From: Marmoricola sp.
Lineage (GTDB): Bacteria; Actinomycetota; Actinomycetes; Propionibacteriales; Nocardioidaceae
Direction: 5' to 3'
DNA: 46,027 bases
NCBI GenBank assembly: GCA_025964795.1
Contig: JAOPYC010000098.1
Span: 1 to 46,027, forward strand
The notes under the pieces are model-generated. The model was not told where the DNA came from. It saw only the letters and a list, made by a program, of their open reading frames with translations, and ran no database searches. Position numbers and translations under genes: made by a program. This document shows positions 27,013 through 43,600 of the stretch, one piece after another. Positions within the stretch are counted from its first letter, which is position 1; every line of letters begins with the position of its first letter.

Positions 27013-27798
27013 TCAGCGACCCTTCCACACCGGCGGCCGCTTCTCGGCGAACGCCCTGAAGCCCTCGAGCCCGTCCTCGGAGCCGTAGAGGGCGTCCACC
27101 GTCGGCAGGGTGCGGCTGGTGACCAGGTCGAGGACCCTCTGGAACGGCTCACCCTCCGCGGCGCGCGCCGTCTCCTTGATCGCGGCGAAGACGAGCGGCG
27201 GCCCGGACTCGAGCAGTCGCGCCACTTCCCAGACGCGCTCGTAGAGCGAGTCCGCGTCCGGGAGCACCTCGTTGACCAGCCCCCAGCGATGGGCCTCCTC
27301 GGCCCCCATCCAGCGTCCGGTCAGCAGCAGCTCCATCGCCACGTGGTAGGGCATCCGCTTGGGCAGCTTGATGGTGGCGGCGTCGGCCAGCGTGCCGGCG
27401 TTGATCTCGGGCAGTCCGAACTGGACCGGCTGCGAGGCGTAGATCAGGTCGCAGGACAGGGCCAGCTCGAAGCCGCCGCCCATCGCCATCCCGTGCACGG
27501 CGGCGATCACCGGCTTGTTCAGGCCCGGCAGCTCCTGCAGGCCGGCGAACCCGCCCACGCCGTAGTCACCGTCGACCGCGTCGCCGTCCGCCGCCGCCTT
27601 GAGGTCCCAGCCCGCGGAGAAGAACTTGTCCCCGGCGGTCCGCACGATGGCCACCAGCAGCGTGGAGTCGTCGCGGAAGGACGCGAACACCTCGCCCATC
27701 ACCCGGCTGGTGGCGAGGTCGATGGCGTTGGCCTTCGGTCGGTCCAGCGTGACCTCGAGGATCCCGCCCTCACGGTGGATGCGTACGTCGTCGCTCAT
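27013..27798 (-). CDS. Enoyl-CoA hydratase/isomerase (crotonobetainyl-CoA hydratase-like)
   Basis: 261 residues from ATG 27798, which has GGGAGG nine bases upstream; the ATG at 27807 overlaps the preceding stop but lies directly on GGGAGG. Crotonase fold: ILEVTLDRPKANAIDLATSR, FFSAGWDLKAAADG and KPVIAAVHGMAMGGGFELALSCDLI (oxyanion hole), then FGLPEINAGTLADAATIKLPKRM. The KANAID(L/A) and FSAGWDLK segments recall the carnitine-type CaiD group. Last gene of the tetR-pot-amine oxidase-ACAD operon, so it probably hydrates the enoyl-CoA made by the dehydrogenase just upstream. Confidence 0.9.
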   Translation of the reverse strand: MSDDVRIHREGGILEVTLDRPKANAIDLATSRVMGEVFASFRDDSTLLVAIVRTAGDKFFSAGWDLKAAADGDAVDGDYGVGGFAGLQELPGLNKPVIAAVHGMAMGGGFELALSCDLIYASQPVQFGLPEINAGTLADAATIKLPKRMPYHVAMELLLTGRWMGAEEAHRWGLVNEVLPDADSLYERVWEVARLLESGPPLVFAAIKETARAAEGEPFQRVLDLVTSRTLPTVDALYGSEDGLEGFRAFAEKRPPVWKGR

Positions 27799-27803
27799 GA
27801 CGC

Positions 27804-28949
27804 TCATCCTCCCAGCGGGCGCAGCAGCCCGCGCGAGATGATGTGCCGCTGGATCTCCGAGGTGCCGTCCCAGATCCGCTCGATCCGCGCGTCGCGCCAG
27901 ATCCGCTCCAGCGGCAGCTCGTCCATCAGGCCCATGCCGCCGTGCACCTGGATCGCCTCGTCGGCGACCATCGCCAGCATCTCGCTGGCCTTGAGCTTGG
28001 CCATCGCGATGTCGGAGTCCGTGGCCGTCCCCTGGTCGTACTTCCAAGCCGCCTCCAGCGTGAGCAGCTCCGCCGCCCGCAGCTCCACGGCCATGTCGGC
28101 CAGCTTGAAGGAGATGCCCTGGAACTTGCCGATCTTCTGGCCGAACTGCACGCGCTCGGCGGCGTGGCGCAGGGAGAGCTCCAGGGCACGCTCGGCGCGG
28201 CCGAGACAGCTGGCGGCGACCTGCAGCCGGGTGCTGCCCAGCCAGGTCCCGGCGAGCTCGAAGCCCTTGCCCTCCTCGCCCAGCAGCGCGTCGGCGGGGA
28301 CGTGGCAGTCGAAGTCGAGGATGGCGTTGGTGTAGCCGCGGTGCGAGACGTTGCGGTAGCCGTCGTGCACGGCCACCCCGGGGGTGTCGAGGTCGATCAG
28401 GAAGGTCGACATCGCCTTGCGCCCGTCCTGCTCGGCGCTGACGGCGACCAGGATGACGAAGTCGGACTCCTGGGCGTGGCTGATGAAGTGCTTGGTGCCC
28501 TTGATCCGCCAGCCGTCCGCGTCGCGGGTGGCGCGGGTGCGCATGGCGCGCATGTCCGAGCCGGCCTCCGGCTCGGTCATGGCCAGGCAGTCGCGCCGCT
28601 CGCCCCGGATGCTCGGGTAGAGGTAGCGCTCGCGCTGGGCCTCGGTGCCGGCGAGCAGGATGTTGGAGGGGCGGCCCACGCAGGAGTGCAGCGCGTAGCT
28701 GGCCCGGCTCAGCTCCTTCTCGTAGAGCACCCAGGTCACGGTGTCGAGGCCGGCACCGCCGACCTCCTCGGGCATGTTCGCGGCGTGCAGGCCGGTGGCG
28801 ATCGCCTTGTCCTTGATCTGCTCGGCGAGCTCGTGCCGGACCACGCCGCTGCGCTCGACCTCGGCCTCGTGCGGGTAGAGCTCACGCTCGACGAACGAGC
28901 GGGTGACCTCCACGATGCTGCGCTGCTCCTCTGTGCGGGAGAAGTCCAT
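27804..28949 (-). CDS. Acyl-CoA dehydrogenase
   Basis: 381 residues with GAGGAGG before the ATG. FAD-dependent desaturation of an acyl-CoA. Family blocks: AANMPEEVGGAGLDTVTWVLYEKELSRASYAL, CLAMTEPEAGSDMRAMRTRA, IKGTKHFISHAQESDFVILVA, ERVQFGQKIGKFQGISFKLADMAVEL, and the C-terminal QVHGGMGLMDELPLERIWRDARIERIWDGTSEIQRHIISR. The acidic residue in IWDGTSEIQ is the usual site near the catalytic base; in CaiA-type enzymes similar sequence is found. Overlaps or abuts the hydratase gene and lies 43 bases after the amine oxidase gene. Confidence 0.93.
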   Translation of the reverse strand: MDFSRTEEQRSIVEVTRSFVERELYPHEAEVERSGVVRHELAEQIKDKAIATGLHAANMPEEVGGAGLDTVTWVLYEKELSRASYALHSCVGRPSNILLAGTEAQRERYLYPSIRGERRDCLAMTEPEAGSDMRAMRTRATRDADGWRIKGTKHFISHAQESDFVILVAVSAEQDGRKAMSTFLIDLDTPGVAVHDGYRNVSHRGYTNAILDFDCHVPADALLGEEGKGFELAGTWLGSTRLQVAASCLGRAERALELSLRHAAERVQFGQKIGKFQGISFKLADMAVELRAAELLTLEAAWKYDQGTATDSDIAMAKLKASEMLAMVADEAIQVHGGMGLMDELPLERIWRDARIERIWDGTSEIQRHIISRGLLRPLGG

Positions 28950-28992: not shown

Positions 28993-30306
28993 TCAGCGCT
29001 GGGAGAGAGCCGCGGCTGCCGCCGCCCGCCCGGTGCGTACGGCGCCCTCCATGTAGCCGGCCACCCACTGGTCCGAGCCGCACACGTAGAAGGGCGGCTC
29101 GTGGGTGCCGTGCAACGGGCCCACGGCCTCGACGTCGCCGGGTCGCCAGCTCGTCACGTAGCCCTGGGTCCACGGGTCGGTGCCCCAGAGGCGGGTCCAC
29201 GTCTGGAGTGGTGCGAGTGCGGGCTCGCCGTAGAGCTGGGCGGCCTGGGCCAGGGCCTCGGCGGTGCGGGTCTGCGGGTCGGTCGCGGCGAAGACGGCGT
29301 AGCGCTCCGGCGGGACCAGCGCGGAGAGCACGCCCTCCTGCTGCGGCCAGGTCGACCCGAGGACGCCCTCGCTCTCGGCGAGCGCGTTCTGACCGGCGTC
29401 GCGCCAGAACGGCCGGTCGTAGGCGGCGACGAACTTGGCGGCCCACGCGTGCCGCTGACGCCGCAGCGAGGTGAGCCGCTCGTCGCTGACGCCCGTGATG
29501 TCGAGGTCGCGGGCAGGCCCGGCCGGGACGGCGAGCACCACCGCGTCGGCGGTGAGCTCCTCCCCGGCCGTCGTGGTGACGGCGCAGCCGCCCGTCGCGA
29601 CGCGGACCCGGGAGACCGGCGTCGAGAGGCGTACGTCGGCCAGCCCGGCCGCCATCCTCAGCGCCACCGTGGCGGATCCCTCGGCCACGCGCTGGTTCTC
29701 CCACTCGGCGACGTCGTAGGCCGCGGTGCCGCCGCCGACCGCCTGCTTGCGGGCGTAGGCGAACATGCTCTGCCGTTCGATGGACCCGTCGGCGAGGCTG
29801 AGGTGGACGAGGTCGAAGGCGCGCAGCACCGCCGCGGTCGCACCGTTGTCACGCAGGAAGTCGCCGACGCTGAGCTGGTCGAGACGGTGCAGGTCGGGGC
29901 TGGCGAACGGGTCCGCAGGGTCGATGCCCGCGACGACCTTCTGCAGGGCTGCCTCGACGTGCTCGTAGGACGCGATGTCCGGCTCGGTCAGCCACGAGGG
30001 CCACGGGCCGACGTCGACCGCCTCGGGCACCTGTCGGGTGATCGCACCCGGCTCCACGACGTACGACGGCACCAGGGTCAGGCCGAGGTCGGCCACTAGC
30101 CCGAGATAGCTGGTGTGCGCGTCGCCGACAACCTCCCCGCCGAGCTGCACCCGGCGACCGTCGGGCAGCTCGACCTGCTCGACCCGTCCGCCGACGCGTG
30201 CGCGCGCCTCGAGCACGGTGACCGAGGCGCCCCCGGCCTCGAGGTCGCGGGCGGCGCTGAGCCCGGCGAGACCGGCGCCGATCACCAGGACGTCGGTGCT
30301 TGTCAC
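28993..30306 (-). CDS. FAD-dependent amine oxidase
   Basis: 437 residues, GTG start. Flavin-containing amine oxidase fold: VLVIGAGLAGLSAARDLEAGGASVTVLEARARVGGRV (dinucleotide site and the arginine pair), VQLGGEVVGDAHTSYLGLVADLGL, and the C-terminal FAD contact FYVCGSDQWVAGYMEGAVRTGRAAA typical of MAO/putrescine-oxidase enzymes. Oxidises an amine to the aldehyde with release of ammonia or a smaller amine and H2O2. Directly follows the ATPase of a polyamine-type importer (7 bases), so the imported amine is its likely substrate. Confidence 0.9.
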   Translation of the reverse strand: MTSTDVLVIGAGLAGLSAARDLEAGGASVTVLEARARVGGRVEQVELPDGRRVQLGGEVVGDAHTSYLGLVADLGLTLVPSYVVEPGAITRQVPEAVDVGPWPSWLTEPDIASYEHVEAALQKVVAGIDPADPFASPDLHRLDQLSVGDFLRDNGATAAVLRAFDLVHLSLADGSIERQSMFAYARKQAVGGGTAAYDVAEWENQRVAEGSATVALRMAAGLADVRLSTPVSRVRVATGGCAVTTTAGEELTADAVVLAVPAGPARDLDITGVSDERLTSLRRQRHAWAAKFVAAYDRPFWRDAGQNALAESEGVLGSTWPQQEGVLSALVPPERYAVFAATDPQTRTAEALAQAAQLYGEPALAPLQTWTRLWGTDPWTQGYVTSWRPGDVEAVGPLHGTHEPPFYVCGSDQWVAGYMEGAVRTGRAAAAAALSQR

Positions 30307-30313
30307 CGGCGCG

Positions 30314-31393
30314 TCACCTCAGCACGACGGCGTGCTCGGGCAACCAGCCGATCTCGACCCGGTCGCCGGCGTTCCACCGGTCGTCCGCACGCATCCGCGG
30401 GAGGTTCTGCTCGAGGACGGTGAGGGTGATGCCGGTGCCCACGGAGACGAGGTACTGCGTGGTGGCGCCGTGATAGCTGGTGGACACGATCGTGCCGGGC
30501 GTCTGCACCATCGCCGGGGTGAAGTCGCTCATCCAGATCTTCTCCGGGCGGATCGCGACGCTGACCTGGTCGCCGTCGACCGACGTGGTGTGGCCGGGCA
30601 CGGGGATCCTCAGGTCGGAGGTGACCGCCACCGTCCCGGACGCGTAGACGCCGGGCATCAGGTTGCTGGTGCCGATGAACCCGGCGGCGAACACCGAGGT
30701 CGGGTTCTCGTAGACGTCCTCGGGCGTGCCGCACTGCTCGATGACGCCGCCGTTCATGATCGCCACCCGGTCGCTCATGCTCAGCGCCTCGTCCTGGTCG
30801 TGGGTGACGAACAGGAAGGTGATGCCGACCTCGCGCTGGATCGACTTCAGCTCGGCCTGCATCGCGTGCCGCAGCTTGAGGTCCAGGGCCGCGAGCGGCT
30901 CGTCGAGCAGCAGCACCTTCGGCCGGTTGATCAGGGCGCGGGCCAGGGCGACGCGCTGGCGCTGCCCGCCGGAGAGCTGCGCCGGTCTGTCCCTGACGCG
31001 GTCGCCCAGCTCGACGAGCTCGAGCATCTCGCCGACCCGCTGGTCGATCTCGCCCTTGTCGATGCCCTTGCGACGCAGGCCGAACCCGACGTTGCGGCGT
31101 ACGTCGAGATGCTCGAAGAGGGCGTAGCTCTGGAAGACGGTGTTCACGTCGCGCCGGTGCGGGGGAGTGCTGGTGACGTCCTCGCCGCCGACCAGCACCT
31201 GTCCCGCCGTGGGGTCGCTGAACCCCGCGATCATCCGCAGCGTCGTGGTCTTGCCACAGCCGGAAGGGCCCAGCAGCGAGAAGAACTCACCGCTGTCCAC
31301 GTCGAGGTCGAGGGCGTCGACGACGGTCTGGCCGCCGAAGACCTTGGTCAGACCGCGCAGGGAGACGGCGTGGCCAGTCGTCGGTGGGGTCAT
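30314..31393 (-). CDS. potA: Spermidine/putrescine-type ABC transporter, ATP-binding protein
   Basis: 359 residues from ATG 31393, overlapping the permease stop (ATGA). Walker A LLGPSGCGKTTTLRM, Q-loop NTVFQSYALFEHL, signature LSGGQRQRVALARAL, Walker B VLLLDEPLAALD, switch His THDQDEALSMSDR, then a C-terminal TOBE-type regulatory domain (VSVAIRPEKIWM). PotA/FutC-like importer subclass. Energises the two permeases encoded upstream. The gene symbol indicates subfamily; the true substrate could be another cation such as a betaine. Confidence 0.92.
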   Translation of the reverse strand: MTPPTTGHAVSLRGLTKVFGGQTVVDALDLDVDSGEFFSLLGPSGCGKTTTLRMIAGFSDPTAGQVLVGGEDVTSTPPHRRDVNTVFQSYALFEHLDVRRNVGFGLRRKGIDKGEIDQRVGEMLELVELGDRVRDRPAQLSGGQRQRVALARALINRPKVLLLDEPLAALDLKLRHAMQAELKSIQREVGITFLFVTHDQDEALSMSDRVAIMNGGVIEQCGTPEDVYENPTSVFAAGFIGTSNLMPGVYASGTVAVTSDLRIPVPGHTTSVDGDQVSVAIRPEKIWMSDFTPAMVQTPGTIVSTSYHGATTQYLVSVGTGITLTVLEQNLPRMRADDRWNAGDRVEIGWLPEHAVVLR

Positions 31394-32226
31394 CGGCGTT
31401 CGCCTCCGGTGATGAGGTCCAGGCTGGAGCTCCTGGACTTGAACAGGCGCGGCAGCATCAGCGCCGCCACGATCAGCAGGGCCGAGACCAGCAGCATCAG
31501 GGTGCCGACCGCGTTGATCGCCGGCGAGACGCCGAAGCGGATCGAGGAGTAGATGCGGACGGGAAGGGGCTGCGGATCCACGCCCGTGGTGAAGAACGCG
31601 AGCACGAAGTCGTCGAAGACGAGCGCGAACACCAGCAGGCCGGAGGCGATCAGGGCCGGGACGAGAGCGGGCAGCGTCACCAGCCGCAGGGACTGCCACG
31701 GGGTGCAGCCGAGGTCGCGGGCGGCCTCCTCGACCTCGAGCGGGAAGCTGGCGAGCCGGCCGCGGACGATCACCGTGACGTAGGCGATCGAGAAGGTGAT
31801 CTCGGCCAGGATGACCGTGTCCAGGCCGAGCTTGAGACCGGCGCCGGTGAAGACGAGCAGGGCCGCGACGCCGGTGACGATCTCCGGCGTGACCAGCGGC
31901 AGCAGCGTGATCGCCCCGACCACGCGGCCACGGCGCGACCGGACCCGCTCCAGGCCGAAGGCCAGCATGGTTCCGAGGACCAGCGAGCCGACGGCGGAGA
32001 CCAGCGCGATGAGCAGGCTGGCGCGCAGCGACTCGAGGAGGGCCTCGTTGTGGAAGAAGTCGACGTACCAGCGGGTGCTGAAGCCGGAGAAGGCCGAGAG
32101 CGACTTCTTGTCGTTGAAGCTGAACAGGGCCACCGCGAAGATCGGCACGTAGAGCCAGGCGAAGAACAGCACCGTGACCACCACGGCCACCAGGGGCTTC
32201 CGCTCCAGCTTCTTCGCGCGGGCCAT
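31390..32226 (-). CDS. potC: Spermidine/putrescine-type ABC transporter permease (PotC-like)
   Basis: 278 residues. Six membrane segments starting at LVAVVVTVLFFAWLYVPIFAVALFSF; the importer EAA loop reads EVEEAARDLGCTPWQSLRLVTLPALVPAL. Typical PotC features include FSTRWYVDFFHNEALLESLRASLLIAL and LVFALVFDDFVLAFFTTG. ATG overlaps the PotB-like stop by one base (TGATG) and its own stop overlaps the ATPase start, so potD-B-C-A are tightly coupled. Confidence 0.92.
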   Translation of the reverse strand: MARAKKLERKPLVAVVVTVLFFAWLYVPIFAVALFSFNDKKSLSAFSGFSTRWYVDFFHNEALLESLRASLLIALVSAVGSLVLGTMLAFGLERVRSRRGRVVGAITLLPLVTPEIVTGVAALLVFTGAGLKLGLDTVILAEITFSIAYVTVIVRGRLASFPLEVEEAARDLGCTPWQSLRLVTLPALVPALIASGLLVFALVFDDFVLAFFTTGVDPQPLPVRIYSSIRFGVSPAINAVGTLMLLVSALLIVAALMLPRLFKSRSSSLDLITGGERR

Positions 32227-33119
32227 CAGAGCTCTCTGGCCTTCGTGGAGGTGGCGCGGAGGTAGACGACCATCAGCACGGTGAGAGCCGCCATCATCGC
32301 GACCGTCATCGCCGAGCCGAGCGGCCAGTTCTGGCCCTCGACGAACTGCTGCTGGATCAGGTTGCCGATCATGAACGTGCTGGACCCACCGAGGAGCTGG
32401 GCGCTGACGAAGTCGCCGAGGGCGGGCAGGAAGACGAGCAGCATCCCGCCGTACAGCCCCGCGCGGGTGGCCGGCAGCGTCACCGTGAAGAACGTCCGCA
32501 GCGGCGAGTGGTAGAGGTCGTTGCCGGCCTCGATCAGCGAGGTGTCCATCCGCTCGAGCGAGGCGTAGACGGGCAGGATCATGAACACCACGAAGCCGTA
32601 GACCAGTCCGCCGATCACCGCCCACGGCGTGTTCAGGAAGGAGATCCCGTCACCCAGGCCCGCCTTGCGCAGGCCGCTGTTGAGCAGGCCGTCGTCGGAG
32701 AGCAGCGCCTTCCAGGCGTACATCCGGATCAGGTAGCTGGCGAAGAACGGCACCACGATCGCGGCGATCAGCGCGTTCTTGTAGCGGCCGCCGTGCAGCG
32801 CGATCGCGTAGGCCACGGGGTAGGCGATCAGCACCGAGAGGGCGACGGTGGCCAGCGCGTAGAGCAGCGACCGGACGAACAGGCGCAGGTAGACCTCGTC
32901 CCACAGGGCGCTGAAGTTGCCGCTGTTGGTGCCGAAGACCGGGAAGCCGTCCCGGGTCGTCGTACCGAACGAGAGCAGCACCACGATGACCATGCTGGAG
33001 ATGAAGAAGGTGACCATCCAGACCGTCGGCAGCGCGAGCAGGTAGCCCCACATCCGGGTGTGCTGGGAGGAGCGCCGGCGCTGGACCCCGGGTGGGGCGT
33101 GGGGAGCCTCGGCCGCCAC
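32226..33119 (-). CDS. potB: Spermidine/putrescine-type ABC transporter permease (PotB-like)
   Basis: 297 residues, GTG start one base after the binding-protein stop. Six membrane segments following a polar N-terminus; EAA-type loop in SLIEAGNDLYHSPLRTFFTVTLPATRAGL. IVVPFFASYLIRMYAWKALLSDDGLLNSGL and FLPALGDFVSAQLLGG are characteristic of PotB/PotH permeases. Pairs with the PotC-like permease. Confidence 0.92.
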   Translation of the reverse strand: MAAEAPHAPPGVQRRRSSQHTRMWGYLLALPTVWMVTFFISSMVIVVLLSFGTTTRDGFPVFGTNSGNFSALWDEVYLRLFVRSLLYALATVALSVLIAYPVAYAIALHGGRYKNALIAAIVVPFFASYLIRMYAWKALLSDDGLLNSGLRKAGLGDGISFLNTPWAVIGGLVYGFVVFMILPVYASLERMDTSLIEAGNDLYHSPLRTFFTVTLPATRAGLYGGMLLVFLPALGDFVSAQLLGGSSTFMIGNLIQQQFVEGQNWPLGSAMTVAMMAALTVLMVVYLRATSTKAREL

Positions 33120-33120
33120 G

Positions 33121-34251
33121 TCAGCTCGCCTTCACTTCGGTCCAGGCGGCCGTGCGGGCCTGGACCTCCTTGGTGCTGAGCAGCCGGAACACGTCGGGGT
33201 TCTCCAGGTCCTTCACGTCGATGTCGCAGGCCGGCACCTCCTTGGCCAGCTCGGTGAAGGTCGCCACCGCGTCCCGCACGGGGAACGGGTAGTAGAGGTA
33301 GTTGATGTTGCGGATCGCGTTCTCCGGGCGGAGCAGGTAGTCGATGAACAGCATCGCCGTGCCGGGGTGCTGGGCGTTGGTCGGGATGGCGTAGGCGTCG
33401 GAGTTGATCGGCGTGCCCTCCCTGGGGGCCTCGAAGTCGTAGTTCTGCGGCTTGTTCACCAGGCCCTGGCGGAGGTACATGAAGTCGCCGCTCCACATGT
33501 GGTGGATCCAGGCGCCGCCGCCGTTCATGTTGTTGACGTCGTCGGAGGAGTAGGCGCGCAGCAGCCTCTTCTGGCTGACCAGCAGCTTCTTCATCTCGGT
33601 GAGGTGCGAGGCCTTGGCGGTGTTCACGTCGTAGCCCAGGCGCAGGGCGGCCATCCCGAGGGCCTCGTCCTGGTCGTCGAGGGTGAAGATGTGCCGGGCG
33701 CCCTGGGGGTTCCAGAGGTCCTCCCAGCTGCCGGTCATCCCGCTGACCTTGTCGGTGCGCCAACCGATGCCGGTCTTGTAGACGGTGAACGGCACCGAGA
33801 CCCGCGACCTCGGGTCGTACCACGGGTCGTTGAAGTAGGAGCCCGAGTAGAAGACCTGGTCGGCGTTCTTGAGCTGGCCGTGGTCGATGACGCGCAGCTT
33901 GCCCTCGCGCCGCATCTTCACGACCCACTTCGCGATCGGGAAGACGACGTCGTACTGGTTGCCGGCGGCGATATTGGCGTACATCCCCTCCATCGAGTCG
34001 AAGTTGGACTCGATGATGCTCACGCCGTACTCCCGCTGGAAGCCCTTGAGCACCTTGGGATCGAGGTAGTCGGCCCAGTTGAAGTAGACGAGGTCGCCGT
34101 CGATCTTCGCCTTGGCCGACTTCGGCAGGGGCGCAGCCACGGGTACGTCGTCGCGGATGTAGGCGCAGCCCGGAAGTGCGGCGGCGGCACCGAGGGCCAG
34201 CCCGCCCGTGAGCAACGTACGGCGGCTGGTCGTCGGCGTCGTCCAGGTCAT
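33121..34251 (-). CDS. potD: Polyamine-type ABC transporter substrate-binding lipoprotein (PotD-like)
   Basis: 376 residues. The N-terminus has a twin-arginine motif (SRRTLLTGG, residues 9-17) and a lipobox LPGC with Cys29, so it is probably a Tat-exported lipoprotein anchored on the outer face of the membrane. The mature part is PotD/PotF-like: LVYFNWADYLDPKVLKGFQREYGVSIIES, YDVVFPIAKWVVKMRREGKL, SVPFTVYKTGIGWRTDKV. Defines what the importer takes up; I cannot read the ligand from the sequence. ATGA overlap with tetR. Confidence 0.92.
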   Translation of the reverse strand: MTWTTPTTSRRTLLTGGLALGAAAALPGCAYIRDDVPVAAPLPKSAKAKIDGDLVYFNWADYLDPKVLKGFQREYGVSIIESNFDSMEGMYANIAAGNQYDVVFPIAKWVVKMRREGKLRVIDHGQLKNADQVFYSGSYFNDPWYDPRSRVSVPFTVYKTGIGWRTDKVSGMTGSWEDLWNPQGARHIFTLDDQDEALGMAALRLGYDVNTAKASHLTEMKKLLVSQKRLLRAYSSDDVNNMNGGGAWIHHMWSGDFMYLRQGLVNKPQNYDFEAPREGTPINSDAYAIPTNAQHPGTAMLFIDYLLRPENAIRNINYLYYPFPVRDAVATFTELAKEVPACDIDVKDLENPDVFRLLSTKEVQARTAAWTEVKAS

Positions 34252-34922
34252 GGGCGTGACCCCGCCACCAGGCCGGCCGGCTCGGGCAGCGGGCCGTCGT
34301 GGCCGACCAGCACGCCCACGGCGACGGCGAGGGTGGCCCGGGCGTCACTCAGCGAGAGGTTCGGGTCGTTGGCCAGCACGCGGGAGCCGAGGCCGTCGCA
34401 CAGGGCGACGGCGGTCTCGGCCACCATCCGCGGGTCGATGCTCCGGTGGAACGCGCCGCTCTCGACGCCCTCGGTGATGAGGCCCGCGATGGTGGCGTAG
34501 AGGTCCTCGTAGAGCTCGGCCCCCACCTTGGCCAGGTCCGGCTGCCGGATGCAGAGCAGCGCCAGCTCCTGCCAGAGCAGCCACTCGTGGGCCAGCCGCT
34601 CGTCGCTGGGCAGGCACCGGTCCAGGAACGAGGACAGCCGCTGGGCGGGCCGGTCTCCGGCGCTCTGCATGGCCTGCTCGTTGAGGACGCCGGAGACCTC
34701 GTGGGAGTAGGTCAGCACGTCGGCGAACAGCTGTTCCTTGGTGTCGAAGTGGTAGTGCAGCAGGCCCGCGGAGACGCCGGCGGCCCGCGCGATGCCGGCC
34801 ATCCGGACCTTCGCCAGCCCGTCGCGGACGATGCAGTCGGCGGTCGCTGCGAGGATCCGGTTGCGCGCCCCGGCGGCCGCCAGCTCGCGCTGGTTGGGCT
34901 CCTTGGGGCGGGTGTCCGCCAT
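34248..34922 (-). CDS. TetR family transcriptional regulator
   Basis: 224 residues with GGAGGGAG before the ATG. N-terminal helix-turn-helix at about residues 20-65: NRILAATADCIVRDGLAKVRMAGIARAAGVSAGLLHYHFDTKEQLFADVL. The C-terminal ligand domain is acidic and Leu-rich, not assignable, though the overall type is like BetI. First gene of the operon that carries the importer, amine oxidase, ACAD and hydratase, and divergent from the acyl-CoA synthetase gene. Probably autorepresses and controls the operator found twice in this region (34959-34976 and 38274-38291). Confidence 0.9.
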   Translation of the reverse strand: MADTRPKEPNQRELAAAGARNRILAATADCIVRDGLAKVRMAGIARAAGVSAGLLHYHFDTKEQLFADVLTYSHEVSGVLNEQAMQSAGDRPAQRLSSFLDRCLPSDERLAHEWLLWQELALLCIRQPDLAKVGAELYEDLYATIAGLITEGVESGAFHRSIDPRMVAETAVALCDGLGSRVLANDPNLSLSDARATLAVAVGVLVGHDGPLPEPAGLVAGSRP

Positions 34923-34958
34923 GGTGCTCCCTCCGGCCTCGAGCCGTACCGCATGTTG

Positions 34959-34976
34959 ACTGTTCAGTCAGTCAGT
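34959..34976. promoter_or_regulatory. TetR-type operator in the tetR/synthetase divergon
   Basis: ACTGTTCAGTCAGTCAGT. It contains part of the palindrome TGACTGTTCAGTCA (34957-34970, perfect 6-bp arms). The same 18 bases, with one change, occur at 38274-38291 before the Rieske gene. The site lies between the divergent tetR and synthetase starts and just upstream of the synthetase -10 box, where repressor would block both. Confidence 0.75.
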
Positions 34977-34981
34977 GATGC

Positions 34982-34987
34982 TAGGCT
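34982..34987 (+). promoter_or_regulatory. Putative -10 box for leaderless acyl-CoA synthetase gene
   Basis: TAGGCT ends 7 bases before ATG 34995, and no ribosome binding site precedes that ATG. TTGACT at 34956-34961 is 20 bases away, a long spacing for a -35. Confidence 0.45.
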
Positions 34988-34994
34988 CGCCGCG

Positions 34995-37151
34995 ATGAGG
35001 CGTCAAGGGTCCCCTCAGCGACCCCCTTCACAGTCAGGGCCCGGCTCCGCGTCCGCGACCGGACGGTCGCTGGACGCCCTCTTCGACCCCCGCTCGATCA
35101 CCGTCGTGGGTGCGAGCGACGACCCCGCCAAGTGGGGCCACATCCTCAGCCGCCGGGCGCTGGAGAACAGCGGCGACCGGCCCGTCGTGCTGGTCAACCG
35201 GCGCGGCGTACCCGTGCTCGGACGCGCCTCGCACCCCACCGTCGCGGCGGCCACCGCTGCGACCGGGGAGCCGCTCGACCTGGTGGTGGTGTGCGTGCCC
35301 TCCCGCGAGCTGGTGCCGGCGGTCGCGGCCGCCCTGGAGGCCGGTGCCCGGTCGCTGGTGGTGATCACGGCCGGCCTCTCCGAGCTCGGGGCCGAGGGGG
35401 CTGCGACCGAGGACGAGGTGGTGCGCCTCGTCCGGTCGGCCGGCGCCGTCCTCGTCGGGCCGAACTGCCTGGGGATCGTGGACACGAGCGTGGACCTCCA
35501 GCTCACCCACGACGTGCTCCCGGTCGGCTCGGTGGCCGTGCTCAGCCAGAGCGGCAACGTCGTGCTCGATCTCGCGGCGCTGCTCGACGACCGGGGCCTG
35601 GGTGTCTCGCGGTTCGTGTCCCTGGGCAACCAGGCAGATCTGTCGGTGGTGGAGTTGATGAGCTCGTGCCTCTCGCACGAGGGCACCCGGGCGGTGGCGA
35701 TCTACGCCGAGGACGTCGTCGACGGGCGCGCCTTCGTCGAGGCCGCGCGCACGCTGGTCGCGGCGGGCAAGCCGGTCGTGCTGATGGCGCCGGGCCGGTC
35801 CGCCGCGGCCGTCCGGAGCGCGGTCTCCCACACCGGCTCGCTGACCAGCGCCTCCCGGGTGGTGGACGCGGCCTGCGCCGCCGCGGGTGCGCACCGGGTG
35901 GACAACCCGACCCAGATGGCCGATCTGCTCCAAGGACTGCTCGCCGACCGCCGGATGGCGGGCCGAGGAGTCGGGATCCTCACCGACGGTGGTGGTCACG
36001 GGGCGATCGCCGGAGACGCCCTCTCCGCCGTCGGGCTCGACGCGCCCGTGCTGGCCGAGGACACGAGCAAGGCCCTGCGCCGCCTGCTGCGGCCGAGCTC
36101 CGTGGTCTCCAACCCGGTCGACCTGGCGGGGGCCGGGGAGCACGACCCGCTGACCTACGTCAGCGCCGTGACCACGCTGCTCTCGGCGGACGAGGTCGAC
36201 GGCGTGCTGATGACGGGCTACTTCGGCGGCTACTCGACCCAGGAGTCCCTGCTCGGCCCCATGGAGGTGGCCGCCGCGCAGGTGCTCGTGGACTTCGTGG
36301 CCGGCCAGTCGAAGCCCGTCGTCGTGCACACGATCTTTCCCGCCGGCCCGACCGCGGCCCTGCTGCGGGCCGGGGGGATCCCGGTGCACCGCGGCGTCGA
36401 CCGGGCGGCCGCCGTCCTGGCCGGGCTGGTGGAGGATCCGTCGCGTTCGCAGGAGTCGCTGGTGCTGCCGCCCGCCGCCGCTCCGGTGACGGACACGACG
36501 TACGACGGGGCGCGGGGGCTGTTCGCCTCAGCCGGCGTCGCGTTCCCTCCCGCGGCCACCGTGCGGGACCCGGCGGCCTTCGAGTCGGCGCTGCCCGGTC
36601 TGGCGTTCCCGGTGGTGCTCAAGGCGCTCGGCCAGGTGCACAAGTCCGACGGCGGTGGCGTGGTCCTCGGGGTCCAGGACGACGCCGCCGCACGGGTCGC
36701 CTACGACGATCTGCTGCTGCGTCTCGACCCGCCCGCGGTCTCCGTCGAGTCGATGGCCGACACCTCGTCCGGCGTCGAGCTCATCGTCGGCTGTGTCCGC
36801 GACCCGCGCTTCGGCCCGGTCCTGATGGTCGGCCTCGGCGGGGTCTTCACCGAGGTGCTCGACGACACCGCCCTGGCCATCGCCCCGGTCTCCGTGGCCG
36901 GCGCCGAGCGCCTGCTCCGCTCCCTGCGCGCCGCGGCGCTGCTCACCGGCGCCCGAGGCAGGGACCCGATCGACCTGCCCGCCCTCGCCACCCTCGTCTC
37001 CCGTGTCAGCCACCTCGCCGCCGAGCACCCCGAGGTGCAGGAGCTCGAGCTCAACCCCGTCCTCGCCACACCCACCGGCGCCGTCGCCCTCGACGCGAGA
37101 GTCGTCCTCGACCCCGGCCCCGCTGGTCAGCCTTCGACGTCGCGCAGGTAG
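34995..37151 (+). CDS. Fused NDP-forming acyl-CoA synthetase (acetate-CoA ligase-like)
   Basis: 718 residues. Alpha and beta parts of the ADP-forming acyl-CoA synthetase family in one chain: CoA-binding domain (about 28-150, ITVVGASDDPAKWGHILSRR), succinyl-CoA ligase-like domains (about 175-480; phospho-His279 in SHTGSLTSASR), and a C-terminal ATP-grasp domain (about 505-710; FPVVLKALGQVHKSDGGGVVLG, GVELIVGCVRDPRFGPVLMVGLGG). Activates a carboxylate to its CoA ester. Divergent from the tetR operon and sharing its operator, so it likely supplies the CoA ester for the ACAD and hydratase. Overlaps the Rieske gene tail-to-tail by 25 bases. Confidence 0.9.
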   Translation: MRRQGSPQRPPSQSGPGSASATGRSLDALFDPRSITVVGASDDPAKWGHILSRRALENSGDRPVVLVNRRGVPVLGRASHPTVAAATAATGEPLDLVVVCVPSRELVPAVAAALEAGARSLVVITAGLSELGAEGAATEDEVVRLVRSAGAVLVGPNCLGIVDTSVDLQLTHDVLPVGSVAVLSQSGNVVLDLAALLDDRGLGVSRFVSLGNQADLSVVELMSSCLSHEGTRAVAIYAEDVVDGRAFVEAARTLVAAGKPVVLMAPGRSAAAVRSAVSHTGSLTSASRVVDAACAAAGAHRVDNPTQMADLLQGLLADRRMAGRGVGILTDGGGHGAIAGDALSAVGLDAPVLAEDTSKALRRLLRPSSVVSNPVDLAGAGEHDPLTYVSAVTTLLSADEVDGVLMTGYFGGYSTQESLLGPMEVAAAQVLVDFVAGQSKPVVVHTIFPAGPTAALLRAGGIPVHRGVDRAAAVLAGLVEDPSRSQESLVLPPAAAPVTDTTYDGARGLFASAGVAFPPAATVRDPAAFESALPGLAFPVVLKALGQVHKSDGGGVVLGVQDDAAARVAYDDLLLRLDPPAVSVESMADTSSGVELIVGCVRDPRFGPVLMVGLGGVFTEVLDDTALAIAPVSVAGAERLLRSLRAAALLTGARGRDPIDLPALATLVSRVSHLAAEHPEVQELELNPVLATPTGAVALDARVVLDPGPAGQPSTSRR

Positions 37152-38236
37152 CGCTGGTCGAAGCCGTGCACCCAGGCGTCCTTGGCCGGGAACACCCCGT
37201 GGTCGAACGCGCGGGAGGTGACGCCGCGCTGGACACGCTCGCAGGCCTCGTTGTCCTGGCTGGTCACGAGCTCGTTGAACTGGATCACCGGCGACGGGTC
37301 GAACTCGGGGTCCTCGAGGGCCTCGGGACTGAAGAGGTACTCCGTCACCAGCGTGCAGCTGCGTGGACCGGTCGGGAAGACCGCGGTGGCCAGGCAGGTA
37401 GAGCCGTCGACGTCGATGAACATCGTCGGGTAGACCCCGGCGCCGTAGTAGGCCTCGGGATCGCCCTGGCCCTTGAAGCCCGGCAGGAGGGGGAGTCGGA
37501 GGCGGGGGTCGGTGACCATCGCCGTGCGCCCGTCGGCGAGGGTGACGCCGCCGTCCTCACGGCCGCTCTCGAACACGAAGCCCTTCTTGTACGCCGGGAC
37601 GACGGCTACCAGCTCCGGGTGGATCGTGGGGCAGTGCAGGCACTCGTTGTAGTTCTCCTGGACGATCTTCCAGTTGGCCTGCACCTCGACCGTGGAGATG
37701 TGCCCGATCCGCAGCTCGCTCAACCCGACCCGGGCCAGACCGAGCGCGTCGTCCTGCTGGTCGGCCAGGTGCTCCAGCAGCGGACGCGGCTCCTCGCGGG
37801 AGAGGTTGACGAAGACGAAGCCCTCCCAGACGTCGACGTGGACCGGCCACAGCGAGGTCGTCTCGCGGTTTATCTCCTCCTTCTCGATCATCGGAGTCGT
37901 GACGAGCGTGCCGTCCAGCGCGTAGCCCCACGCGTGGTACGGGCACCGGAGGTGCGAGCGGGTGAAACCCTGCTCGTCGTCGCACAGCCGCGAGCCGCGG
38001 TGGCGGCAGACGTTGTAGAAGCCGCGGATCTGCTCGTCCTTGCCGCGGACGACCAGGATGCTCTCGCCGGCGATCTCGAAGCGCAGCCACGACCCCGGCT
38101 TCTCCAGGCGCTCCGCGCGGCCGACGTAGATCCAGTTGCGGAAGAAGACCTTCTCGCTGTCGACGGCGTAGGTCTCGTCCGAGTGGTACGCCGTGCCGGG
38201 CAGCGTCTTCCGGACCGGTTCGGTGGTCGTCGTCAT
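37127..38236 (-). CDS. Rieske non-heme iron oxygenase, alpha subunit (carnitine/choline monooxygenase-like)
   Basis: 369 residues from ATG 38236 with CAGGAG upstream. Rieske centre: C77-x-H79 (NVCRHRG) and C98-x2-H101 (LRCPYHAWGY). Mononuclear iron: H201 and H206 in NYNECLHCPTIHPE plus D328 in TSQDNEACERVQRG. The residue bridging the two centres is Glu198, as in carnitine monooxygenase CntA, where most ring-hydroxylating oxygenases have Asp. That and the QDNE.CERVQRG ending suggest an N-demethylating or quaternary-ammonium oxygenase. The required reductase is not in the window. Preceded by the same operator as tetR. Confidence 0.9.
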   Translation of the reverse strand: MTTTTEPVRKTLPGTAYHSDETYAVDSEKVFFRNWIYVGRAERLEKPGSWLRFEIAGESILVVRGKDEQIRGFYNVCRHRGSRLCDDEQGFTRSHLRCPYHAWGYALDGTLVTTPMIEKEEINRETTSLWPVHVDVWEGFVFVNLSREEPRPLLEHLADQQDDALGLARVGLSELRIGHISTVEVQANWKIVQENYNECLHCPTIHPELVAVVPAYKKGFVFESGREDGGVTLADGRTAMVTDPRLRLPLLPGFKGQGDPEAYYGAGVYPTMFIDVDGSTCLATAVFPTGPRSCTLVTEYLFSPEALEDPEFDPSPVIQFNELVTSQDNEACERVQRGVTSRAFDHGVFPAKDAWVHGFDQRYLRDVEG

Positions 38237-38273
38237 GGTGACTCCTGAGTCGCGGATCCCGAGGGTTTCGCTA

Positions 38274-38291
38274 ACTGTACAGTCAGTCAGT
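38274..38291. promoter_or_regulatory. TetR-type operator before the Rieske oxygenase gene
   Basis: ACTGTACAGTCAGTCAGT, differing at one base from the site at 34959-34976. It contains the perfect palindrome ACTGTACAGT (38274-38283). It lies 38 bases upstream of the Rieske start and covers the stop codon of the HNH gene (38287-38289), so the Rieske promoter is built into the end of the neighbouring gene. Confidence 0.75.
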
Positions 38292-39654
38292 TCCGCATGG
38301 GGGCGCTCGGCGGCTGCTGATGTGGTCGTTGCCCTCCGGGCGTGCGTCGTACGCCGGGTGGTGGATCGAAGGCGAAGTCTCTGGGACCAGCTCTTCGGAT
38401 GGTCCACGGGCCTGCGTGCACGAGGCGGTGGTGGTGCCCGCACAGGAGCATCAGATTCTCCAGGGACGTGTCGCCGCCGTCGGCCCAGTGGACGATGTGG
38501 TGAGCGTGTGTCATCACCGGTGGCCGGGTGCAGTGGGGGAAGCGGCAGTGGCGGTCCCTGGCCACAAGTGCGGTCCACAGGGAAGCGGTGACGAGTCGCG
38601 ACGTCCGGCCGATGTCGAGGACCTGTGACTCACTGCCGAGGATCACCGGGACGATCTCGGCGTCGCAGGCCAGGCGGCGAATGGTGGCGGGGGAGAGGAC
38701 CTCGTCGGTCTCGGTGGTGCCGTAGCCGGTTGCCCGACGGAGGTGGTCGAAGTCCATCGTGACGGTGACGCGCGGGACGGTGCCGTGGGACGTGGGGAGC
38801 AGGTCAGCCGTCCGGGCTCGCCGACAGAGCTCGACGAACGCATCGAGCATCCGGGCACCGTGGTCGCGAGGGTCGCGGCCGTTGTGGCTGCAGCCGGGGA
38901 TGGCGCAGCTCCCGGGGTCACAGGTGGGCCCGTCGCTGGGCACTGGTGCGGCCAGGGACATCAGAGCGGTCCGGAGGTCGGTGGCGTCCTCGCTGCTGCA
39001 CCGGCCTCGGATGAACGCCCCGCCGGCGCCGTCGTCCTTGATGACCAGGTCGCGGTCGAGGTGGGCGGCGCGCTCGCCACGCTCGAGCTCCTTCTCGTCG
39101 CGGCGGGCCTGGCCGTCGGGGTCGACGACGCCGACGAGGTGGCGCACGACCTTGCGCAGCTCGGTGGCGTCGAGCCGCGCGGCCTCGGTGAGCAGGAACC
39201 GCACCCCGCGTGCCCGGATCGTGGGGTCGCCGGGCAGGAGGTCGATCGCGCGGGTGATGACCTGGGCCTTCGTGGTCGAGAGCCAGCCGTCGCGGATGGC
39301 TTCGCCGACCGGGACCATCAGCGGCTCCTCGACCACAGTGGCGAGCTTCACCACCGCAGGACCCTCGCTCTTGTGCCCACCGGAGGTCGCCGTGACGAAG
39401 TCCTGGGTCGAAGCCCATCCGCAGGGCTTGACCCCGCTGGTCGCGTGCAGCTCGCCGACCATCGCGAGCACGAGGCCGTCGATGCTGGTCTTCAACGACT
39501 CGGCCGCCGCGACGCCGTCCATGAGTTCCTCAGGAGTGCGCGCGGCCCACAACGTTTCGGCGAGCTCCGCAACCTGCGCCCGAAGTCCTTCCAGGACAGC
39601 CGCGACACCGCCGGCACCGGGGGTGCCGGGTGGGGTGTTCGGCTGGCTGGTCAT
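38287..39654 (-). CDS. DUF222 / HNH endonuclease domain protein (13E12 repeat family)
   Basis: 455 residues from ATG 39654 (TTG 39666 also possible). An N-terminal DUF222 domain (about 15-320; LDATELRKVVRHLVGVVDPDGQARRDEKELERGE) is followed by an HNH nuclease: CRFPHCTRPPVMTHAHHIVHWADGGDTSLENLMLLCGHHHRLVH at about 375-420, with the two CxxC-type cysteines and catalytic HH. Such proteins occur in many copies in actinobacterial genomes and are regarded as mobile or selfish genes (REP13E12 in mycobacteria). No link to the adjacent catabolic genes is expected beyond sharing DNA with the Rieske operator. Confidence 0.9.
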   Translation of the reverse strand: MTSQPNTPPGTPGAGGVAAVLEGLRAQVAELAETLWAARTPEELMDGVAAAESLKTSIDGLVLAMVGELHATSGVKPCGWASTQDFVTATSGGHKSEGPAVVKLATVVEEPLMVPVGEAIRDGWLSTTKAQVITRAIDLLPGDPTIRARGVRFLLTEAARLDATELRKVVRHLVGVVDPDGQARRDEKELERGERAAHLDRDLVIKDDGAGGAFIRGRCSSEDATDLRTALMSLAAPVPSDGPTCDPGSCAIPGCSHNGRDPRDHGARMLDAFVELCRRARTADLLPTSHGTVPRVTVTMDFDHLRRATGYGTTETDEVLSPATIRRLACDAEIVPVILGSESQVLDIGRTSRLVTASLWTALVARDRHCRFPHCTRPPVMTHAHHIVHWADGGDTSLENLMLLCGHHHRLVHAGPWTIRRAGPRDFAFDPPPGVRRTPGGQRPHQQPPSAPMRN

Positions 39655-39717
39655 GACTGAATTCAAGCACCGAGCACTGACAACGTTGGCCGAGAATCCG
39701 CTGTCTCCACAGGGGAT

Positions 39718-42505: not shown

Positions 42506-43600
42506 ATGAACAGTCTGACCGATCTGCGCGAAGTGGTCGATGTCGTCATCGGCGTCGACACCCACGTCCACACCCACTCCGCGGCCGTGGTCGATGCTGC
42601 GACTGGTGGTGTCCTCGACGAGATCACCGTCGAAGCGACAGCCGAGGGCTATGCCGAGCTCGTGGAGTTCGCCAACAGCCACGCGATGCTGCGGGCCTGG
42701 GCGATCGAAGGGACCGGTGGTCACGGCGCCGGTCTGAGCCGTCACCTGTTGGAGACGTCGGAGATCGTCATCGAGTTGGACCGCCCGAAGCGGGCCGCGC
42801 GCCGCAACGGCGCGAAGTCTGATCCGCTCGATGCGATCCGCGCTGCGCGCGAGGCGATGGCTCGACCGCGGTTAGGAACCCCACGCAGCGCGGGCGAACG
42901 TCAAGCACTGTCGGTGCTCTTGGTTGCTCGACGCTCCGCGATCAACGCCTCCACCGAGGCCCAGCAGCAGGTCTTCAGCCTGATCATCGCAGCACCCGAA
43001 CCCATCCGAGTCAGGTTCCGCGGCCAGAAGCTTGCCGCGATGCTCAACACCGCCGCGAACCTGCGCGTGCACGCCTCCTGGGACACCGAGACGACCAGCA
43101 CCGTGATGGTGCTGCGCACCTTGGCACGTCGCGCGCACGCGATGCTGAAGGAGGCACGGGAGCTGCAGAAGGAGCTCGCGGCCATCATCCGTAGTTGGCG
43201 TCCTGACCTGCTCGAGGAGTTCGGCGTCGGACCGATCGTGGCCGCGACTGTGTTGTGCGCCTGGTCCCACCCGGGCCGTATTCACTCCGAGGCAGCGTTC
43301 GCGATGCTGGCCGGCGTGGCACCCATCCCAGCGAACAGCGGCCAAGTCACCACCCGATATCGGCTCAACCGCTACGGGGACCGGTACCTCAACAACGCAC
43401 TGCACACCGTGGTCCAGAGCCGGATCCAGTACCAGCAAGCCACCCGCGACTACGTCGCTCGCCGCACTGCCGAAGGCAAGACCGGACGCGAGATCAAACG
43501 CTGCCTTGCCCGCTACGTCGCCCGCGACCTCTATCGCCTACTCGAAAGTGGGGCCAAAGCTGCTTGACGAAGCATAGGAGCGTCGCACCCTCACGCGCTA
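42250..43600 (+). mobile_element. IS110-family insertion element (ends approximate)
   Basis: Contains one IS110-type recombinase gene with a non-coding left part of 200-250 bases and a short right part. IS110 members lack the inverted repeats and target duplications that would show their ends, so the limits given are estimates. Flanked by the small membrane protein on the left and the AT-richer island on the right. Confidence 0.65.
42506..43567 (+). CDS. IS110 family transposase
   Basis: 353 residues with GAAGGAG 7 to 13 bases before the ATG. N-terminal DEDD (RuvC-like) domain: VIGVDTHVHTHSAAVVD (Asp15-18 region), LRAWAIEGTGGHGAGLS (Glu), and LDRPKRAARRNGAKSDPLDAIRAARE with the last two Asp. 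C-terminal transposase_20 domain: EEFGVGPIVAATVLCAWSHPGRIHSEAAFAMLAGVAPIPANSGQVTTRYRLNRYGDRYLN, including the serine of SGQ proposed as nucleophile. Intact and full length, so the element may be active. Co-operates with an element-encoded bridge RNA in characterised members. Confidence 0.94.
   Translation: MNSLTDLREVVDVVIGVDTHVHTHSAAVVDAATGGVLDEITVEATAEGYAELVEFANSHAMLRAWAIEGTGGHGAGLSRHLLETSEIVIELDRPKRAARRNGAKSDPLDAIRAAREAMARPRLGTPRSAGERQALSVLLVARRSAINASTEAQQQVFSLIIAAPEPIRVRFRGQKLAAMLNTAANLRVHASWDTETTSTVMVLRTLARRAHAMLKEARELQKELAAIIRSWRPDLLEEFGVGPIVAATVLCAWSHPGRIHSEAAFAMLAGVAPIPANSGQVTTRYRLNRYGDRYLNNALHTVVQSRIQYQQATRDYVARRTAEGKTGREIKRCLARYVARDLYRLLESGAKAA

Follow-up and report, generated by a model that had tools for sequence, protein, structure and literature searches.

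Two near-identical sites as predicted operators of a BetI-type TetR repressor and a ten-gene regulon in Marmoricola sp.

What connects a polyamine-type importer, an amine oxidase, coenzyme A (CoA) enzymes and a Rieske oxygenase that are encoded side by side in an actinobacterial genome? The question is raised by two short, almost identical sequences in a stretch of 46,027 nucleotides (nt) from Marmoricola sp. (contig JAOPYC010000098.1), which is referred to here in its entirety as the window. A sequence-only reading of the window had proposed that both are operators of the TetR-family regulator encoded beside the first. Based on genome comparisons, we consider it very probable that the two sites serve as operators of this BetI-type TetR (34248-34922) and define one regulon of ten genes for the import and degradation of a charged amine.

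The two 18-mers, ACTGTTCAGTCAGTCAGT at 34959-34976 and ACTGTACAGTCAGTCAGT at 38274-38291 (both on the + strand), indeed differ in a single base, base 6. Gene starts also bore out their placement. The first lies in a divergon, between the start of tetR (34922, - strand) and that of an acyl-CoA synthetase gene (34995, + strand), and the second lies 37 bases before the start of the Rieske gene (38236, - strand). The location given for the operator thus stands, but not its exact extent. The conserved block extends two bases to the left of the 18-mers, beginning at 34957 and 38272, and has the form TRACTG-NNCAGT-CAGTCAG with dyad symmetry about either of two centers. The operators are listed below.

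34957..34976, + strand: operator 1, TGACTGTTCAGTCAGTCAGT, in the tetR/acyl-CoA synthetase divergon; contains 34959-34976; kept in 11 of 12 genomes
38272..38291, + strand: operator 2, TAACTGTACAGTCAGTCAGT, before the Rieske gene; contains 38274-38291; kept in 12 of 12 genomes

No third place within three mismatches of the 18-mer was found in the window, and 100 shuffles gave a mean of 0.01 matches, with no shuffle holding two. When up to three mismatches were allowed across the genome (4,322,372 bases in 204 contigs, 92.39% complete), just the two window sites were returned, each exact; hence, no further copy was seen at an unrelated promoter in this genome. The motif read backwards, which served as a control, also gave two places at this threshold. 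This indicates that the exactness and position of the matches exceed chance, as had been argued, while their bare count at three mismatches does not. With the relaxed pattern TRACTG-N6-CAGTCA and one mismatch, one extra place was found in this genome (C88:2798), fewer than with the reversed-pattern control.

Conservation of the sites was analyzed in 12 genomes, including the window's own (L042-L047, L093-L095, L041 from G068, and L040 and L096 on two contigs of G062; L100 and L101, which repeat L042 and L047, were dropped). TetRs 65-76% identical to the window's came from Nocardioidaceae only, occurring in 8 of 53 loci and in eight genomes besides the window's among 197 of the family, these two sets being partly shared. 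Nine loci cover the entire cluster (L042-L047, L093-L095), and all possess the ten genes in the window's order and orientation. As anticipated for orthologous clusters, the motif was retained before the Rieske gene in 12/12 genomes and in the tetR/synthetase divergon in 11/12, while the flanking bases drift. The resulting 23 sites have zero to two differences from ACTGTWCAGTCAGTCAGT, except in L044 (three at both sites) and L093 (three at the divergon). In the exceptional L041 (G068, 86% complete), tetR lies directly behind the Rieske gene with a single site upstream of both, and no synthetase or amine oxidase gene was detected in searches of the G068 genome. A palindromic site near the regulator's own start that is conserved among orthologues (11/12) marks this protein as a probable TetR repressor with a predicted cognate operator.

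The site also co-occurs with the regulator. Across the 197 genomes of the family, with TetR presence defined as E <= 1e-30, a site with no more than one mismatch was present in 9/9 genomes holding the TetR and in 0/188 without it (Fisher p ~1e-15, uncorrected for relatedness), and all 13 places at this stringency fall at the cluster. Together with conservation in 12 genomes, this result supports the proposal of one regulator for ten genes. That scope holds in the window; in one relative (G028), a third operator copy remote from the cluster directly precedes an eleventh gene, which encodes a beta-keto acid cleavage enzyme (BKACE; L025, G028:C1:148462-148479; L173:9463-9480).

The one-base difference between the copies proved to be fixed, a point beyond the sequence-only reading: base 6 is T in 11/11 divergon sites and A in 12/12 Rieske sites. 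On the strand of the Rieske gene, this position opens a hexamer, which the change turns from AACAGT into TACAGT. Thus, the sole base separating the window copies completes a -10-like hexamer. Actinobacteria use TANNNT hexamers and leaderless messages, and three such elements are proposed for the window.

38274..38279, - strand: putative Rieske -10 TACAGT, within operator 2; operator 1 has AACAGT
34982..34987, + strand: putative -10 TAGGCT of the acyl-CoA synthetase gene, in TGCTAGGCT, 7 nt before the start codon
34978..34983, - strand: candidate -10 TAGCAT of tetR, a weak assignment; GATGNTA in 11/11 loci, read by eye

A TANNNT hexamer is present inside the Rieske operator in 12/12 loci (TACAGT, once TACGGT), and the Rieske start codon follows it after 6 nt in seven of the 12. 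Similarly, in 11/11 loci a TANNNT lies exactly 7 nt upstream of the synthetase start, which is conserved. From these positions we infer that the hexamers are -10 elements and that the messages are leaderless. The differing base therefore seems to make one of the two operator copies part of a promoter.

The genes concerned were identified by Pfam and NCBIfam scans and by the nearest solved structures in sequence, as follows.

34248..34922, - strand: TetR repressor with BetI-type C-terminal domain (TetR_N and TetR_C_6, Pfam)
33121..34251, - strand: PotD/PotF-like solute-binding protein (domain models; nearest solved structures are PotD/PotF proteins)
32226..33119, - strand: PotB-like permease (domain models)
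31390..32226, - strand: PotC-like permease (longer frame scanned; start by reading)
30314..31399, - strand: PotA-like ATPase (longer frame scanned; TIGR01187 above cut-off; start by reading)
28993..30306, - strand: flavin amine oxidase (nearest solved relatives are putrescine oxidases)
27804..28949, - strand: acyl-CoA dehydrogenase, ACAD (domain models)
27013..27807, - strand: enoyl-CoA hydratase (crotonobetainyl-CoA hydratase is the top NCBIfam model, below cut-off)
34995..37151, + strand: NDP-forming acyl-CoA synthetase (CoA_binding_2, Succ_CoA_lig, ATP-grasp_5)
37127..38236, - strand: Rieske oxygenase (nearest solved carnitine monooxygenase; best NCBIfam GbcA, below cut-off)

The eight genes tetR-potD-potB-potC-potA-amine oxidase-ACAD-hydratase, all on the - strand, overlap by at most 10 bases or are separated by gaps of 1-43 bases (starts partly by reading), consistent with the continuous run that had been read from tetR through the hydratase. 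The N-terminal DNA-binding domain of the TetR is clear (PF00440, 49.6 bits against a cut-off of 24), but the protein fails the BetI equivalog TIGR03384 (47.5 bits, cut-off 201.3). Likewise, the Rieske protein fails the GbcA equivalog NF058607 (189.7 bits, cut-off 670), and the hydratase fails the CaiD model NF002936, its best match (291.6 bits, cut-off 500). PotA passes its subfamily model TIGR01187 (360.3 bits, cut-off 355.6), while PotB, PotC and PotD models scored under their cut-offs. The enzyme names are thus used here as leads, given that the NCBIfam matches relied on, PotA excepted, are below curated cut-offs. The nearest solved structure to the Rieske protein is the carnitine monooxygenase 6y8j (E 3.2e-40, identity low), with 3vca, which we take to be a stachydrine-related Rieske enzyme, lower in the list. 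In the alignment to the carnitine enzyme, NYNECLHC of the window's Rieske protein matched NYMECYHC with the two Glu residues paired, and in our own reading this Glu would be the bridging residue. A bridging Asp or Glu is reported to be typical, Glu being found in the E. coli enzyme (PMC9508527). No reductase domain was detected among the scanned cluster genes; the genome has six PF00970 matches, all on other contigs. The FAH and IlvD/Edd neighbors were considered as further regulon members and rejected, since tblastn gave neither in the orthologous stretches, which reach a few kb beyond the cluster.

Based upon the observed sequences, their scarcity in the genome, conservation, co-occurrence and hexamer positions, we predict binding, repression, promoters and ligand as follows. 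When inducer is absent, a TetR dimer would occupy both operators. At operator 1 it would cover the tetR start region and the bases immediately preceding the synthetase -10, and both divergent messages (synthetase; tetR-potDBCA-amine oxidase-ACAD-hydratase) would be off. At operator 2 it would cover the Rieske -10 hexamer that lies inside the operator. The T-to-A difference would be functional, as it would create the TANNNT -10 element TACAGT on the Rieske strand. Release of the TetR by a ligand, for which a catabolite of a quaternary amine or the CoA ester of such a catabolite is the probable candidate, would turn on all ten genes together.

Similar sites accompany more distant regulators. In a class-level search, 15 of 394 genomes passed 1e-25 for the TetR, and 12 of these (all but G000, G105 and G028) were scanned for TGACTG-N6-CAGTCA with up to two mismatches. 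The palindrome was found ahead of tetR in L142 (51% TetR) and 30 bases ahead of the Rieske match in L143. Six of seven loci in family f20 (L144, L145, L146, L148, L150, L151) have it approximately 100-260 bases before the Rieske match; L147 of the same family showed no Rieske match. L152 and L153 have a two-mismatch palindrome before tetR, and L149 has none at up to two mismatches. Five more two-mismatch palindromes lie elsewhere in L142, L145, L147, L148 and L152, and such stray matches indicate that single weak matches mean little. A further 45 distant TetR loci (L048-L092; mostly haloarchaea, with some proteobacteria and mycobacteria; 25-50% identity) were picked by peptide patterns including HYHFDTKE, a peptide common to all by selection. 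In a region of 270 bases before and into the TetR match, the palindrome was present at up to two mismatches in 33/45 loci, several of them near-duplicates (Haloferax) and not independent, compared with 7/1576 control windows from the same loci. Another scan of TetR rows gave 38/59 (control 6/1048); 33/45 is the count used here. These HYHFDTKE-bearing TetRs of haloarchaea, proteobacteria and mycobacteria often have CTGACTGA-N4-TCAGTCAG palindromes upstream of their own genes, and it is possible that this is their general recognition code. Within Nocardioidaceae, two diverged clusters (L097, L098) contain a TetR of 29-31% identity, an ACAD, an NDP-forming synthetase, Pot parts and a Rieske gene, with three or four similar sites (AGACTGAACRRTCAGTCA-type) each at gene starts. 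Both also carry a gene for a GSA-type aminotransferase; the TetR of L098 is BetI-like, and in L097 a glycine-oxidase-like gene adjoins the ACAD gene.

Several observations weigh against our interpretation. The conserved sites stem from 12 related genomes and are not independent, and the window's assembly is 92% complete. When two mismatches were allowed in the 197 genomes, 35 places in 21 genomes were found versus 29 with the reversed control (our own count), meaning that two-mismatch matches outside the cluster are background; four of the two-mismatch matches are in G018 and G130, which lack a close TetR but possess the diverged cluster. TRACTG-N6-CAGTCA with one mismatch gave counts no higher than the control in most of 10 relatives, where perfect copies of TGACTG-N6-CAGTCA were also located away from the cluster at G066:C1:107272-107289 (L106) and G008:C1:2685233-2685250. 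Such copies may serve other TetRs of the group as operators. The dyad center can be read two ways owing to a 4-base period and a third CAGT unit: an N6 register (TGACTG-TTCAGT-CAGTCA) and an N2 register suit the window sites equally, and symmetry alone could not settle between them. In the other five of 12 loci, the Rieske start is 12 to 37 nt after the hexamer (37 in the window; starts chosen by script), and the tetR promoter is not clearly defined. In eight TetR-bearing family genomes, BKACE is encoded outside the cluster. The site precedes it in G028 alone; the remote BKACE gene is without an operator in G000, G008, G062, G066, G068, G105 and G117, the window's own genome included. Lastly, 12/45 distant TetRs have no palindrome at up to two mismatches, and the TetRs of L097 and L098 lack HYHFDTKE (VVYYFGTKDH-type) yet have similar sites beside them, which suggests that this peptide is not the whole code.

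Could the motif instead be the operator of another regulator, with the cluster's TetR binding elsewhere? The stray perfect or near matches off the cluster in some genomes would fit such a view. However, presence of the site at up to one mismatch follows this TetR across the family, distant TetRs that share the helix peptide have palindromes of this kind upstream of their own genes, and in G068, where tetR lies behind the Rieske gene and neither synthetase nor amine oxidase was found, the single site is still upstream of both. We therefore regard this alternative as improbable. Even less credible is a shared core-promoter sequence or small repeat element with no operator function, although TANNNT hexamers lie in or beside the block, CAGT is repeated within it, and site 2 coincides with the end of a DUF222/HNH frame. 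The block differs in position relative to the hexamers, being upstream at the synthetase and overlapping at the Rieske gene, and it has dyad symmetry. A simple repeat or mobile element was rejected, as the genome holds just two copies and the block is kept despite differing reading-frame layouts beyond the cluster in seven orthologous loci. Somewhat more plausible, but still unlikely, is a smaller regulon in which the TetR controls tetR and near neighbors while part of the pot-to-hydratase stretch has a promoter or control of its own. The 43-base gap ahead of ACAD could accommodate this, whereas the short or overlapping gene junctions, the identical gene order in nine orthologous loci and the motif scans, which list no additional site within this stretch, favor control of all ten genes by the one TetR.

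The substrate is less certain than the regulon. A PotABCD-type importer and a putrescine-oxidase-like enzyme would suit a polyamine pathway, and we give this a substantial chance, though short of an even one. In contrast, the Rieske enzyme is nearest to betaine/carnitine enzymes and the hydratase scores best with crotonobetainyl-CoA hydratase, both below curated cut-offs. BKACE also speaks for a betaine. It is present in 21/197 family genomes, including all nine with the TetR, and its gene is directly after the hydratase gene in L043, L045 and L046 (L043 and L045 are 93% and 90% identical to L046). In 3/3 loci scanned (L166 from the window's own genome, L168 and L171), BKACE is followed by a gene that scores best as L-carnitine dehydrogenase, below cut-off; in the own genome, the pair lies on contig C119 next to a regulator gene whose best-scoring model is BhcR. 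The operator linked to BKACE in G028 is a hint at carnitine-type metabolism. Taking together the placement of BKACE, its carnitine-dehydrogenase-like neighbor and the carnitine route of Pseudomonas described below, we favor a gamma-butyrobetaine/carnitine-type betaine, at about even odds, as the predicted substrate.

Several published systems resemble this one. BetI, the choline repressor, binds the box ATTGACG*CGTCAAT (PMC12442346). Like the window's TetR, it has a BetI-type C-terminal domain, a palindromic operator and a link to quaternary-amine catabolism, and its divergon likewise has sites over promoter elements. Its box, however, differs by eye from the window's CAGTCAGT-type TRACTG-NNCAGT-CAGTCA sites, and no gene of the betA, betB or betT type is among the ten scanned window genes. 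SbtR (TTHA0167) of Thermus thermophilus is a TetR-family protein with the operator TGACYrnnyRGTCA (PMC7022988). By consensus, its TGAC...GTCA arms are close to the palindromes that accompany the distant TetRs described above, but its targets differ, and the window sites instead have CAGT repeats and the spacer TWCAGT. In comparison with carnitine monooxygenase CntA/CntB, the window's Rieske protein is related to CntA at low identity, but a reductase gene is not among the ten. In Pseudomonas, the carnitine route employs carnitine dehydrogenase and BKACE (PMC12482172). The window's genome has the adjacent genes for BKACE and an L-carnitine-dehydrogenase-like protein on C119, but that pair is without a copy of this operator. 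Among the titles and abstract openings listed from the open-licence literature, no paper on this cluster was found, and the exact motif words were unmatched. Regulation is of a familiar kind, and the gene set is little described.

These findings turn a motif match into a concrete predicted regulon, in which one repressor would act on ten genes through two operators, with a predicted inducer class and a predicted key base. They would also link importers of the polyamine type and enzymes resembling putrescine oxidase to probable betaine catabolism, a case in which annotation by name only would mislead. The CTGACTGA...TCAGTCAG code may apply to a wide TetR group, many with HYHFDTKE, and could be used for regulon annotation in haloarchaea and bacteria. 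The predicted merging of operator and -10 through one fixed base is an unusual detail. Tentatively, we speculate that the cluster is an undescribed actinobacterial gamma-butyrobetaine-type regulon (import, CoA activation, beta-oxidation to carnitinyl-CoA, Rieske demethylation), that its TetR shares a CAGTCAG code common to haloarchaea through proteobacteria, and that the operator is an upstream block at one promoter and the -10 itself at the other.

Some features around the cluster were also recorded. A DUF222/HNH reading frame (38287-39666) overlaps the right end of operator 2 with its 3' end; among the orthologous loci, a DUF222 match was found in L044 only, approximately 5 kb from its Rieske gene. 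In G008, genes for an FMO-like protein, two cytochrome P450s and a zinc alcohol dehydrogenase lie just upstream of the Rieske gene (L093:3170-8360). IS110-type transposase genes are present near the cluster (window 42506-43567) and, in the same genome, near the BKACE/carnitine-dehydrogenase-like pair (L166:10471-11691).

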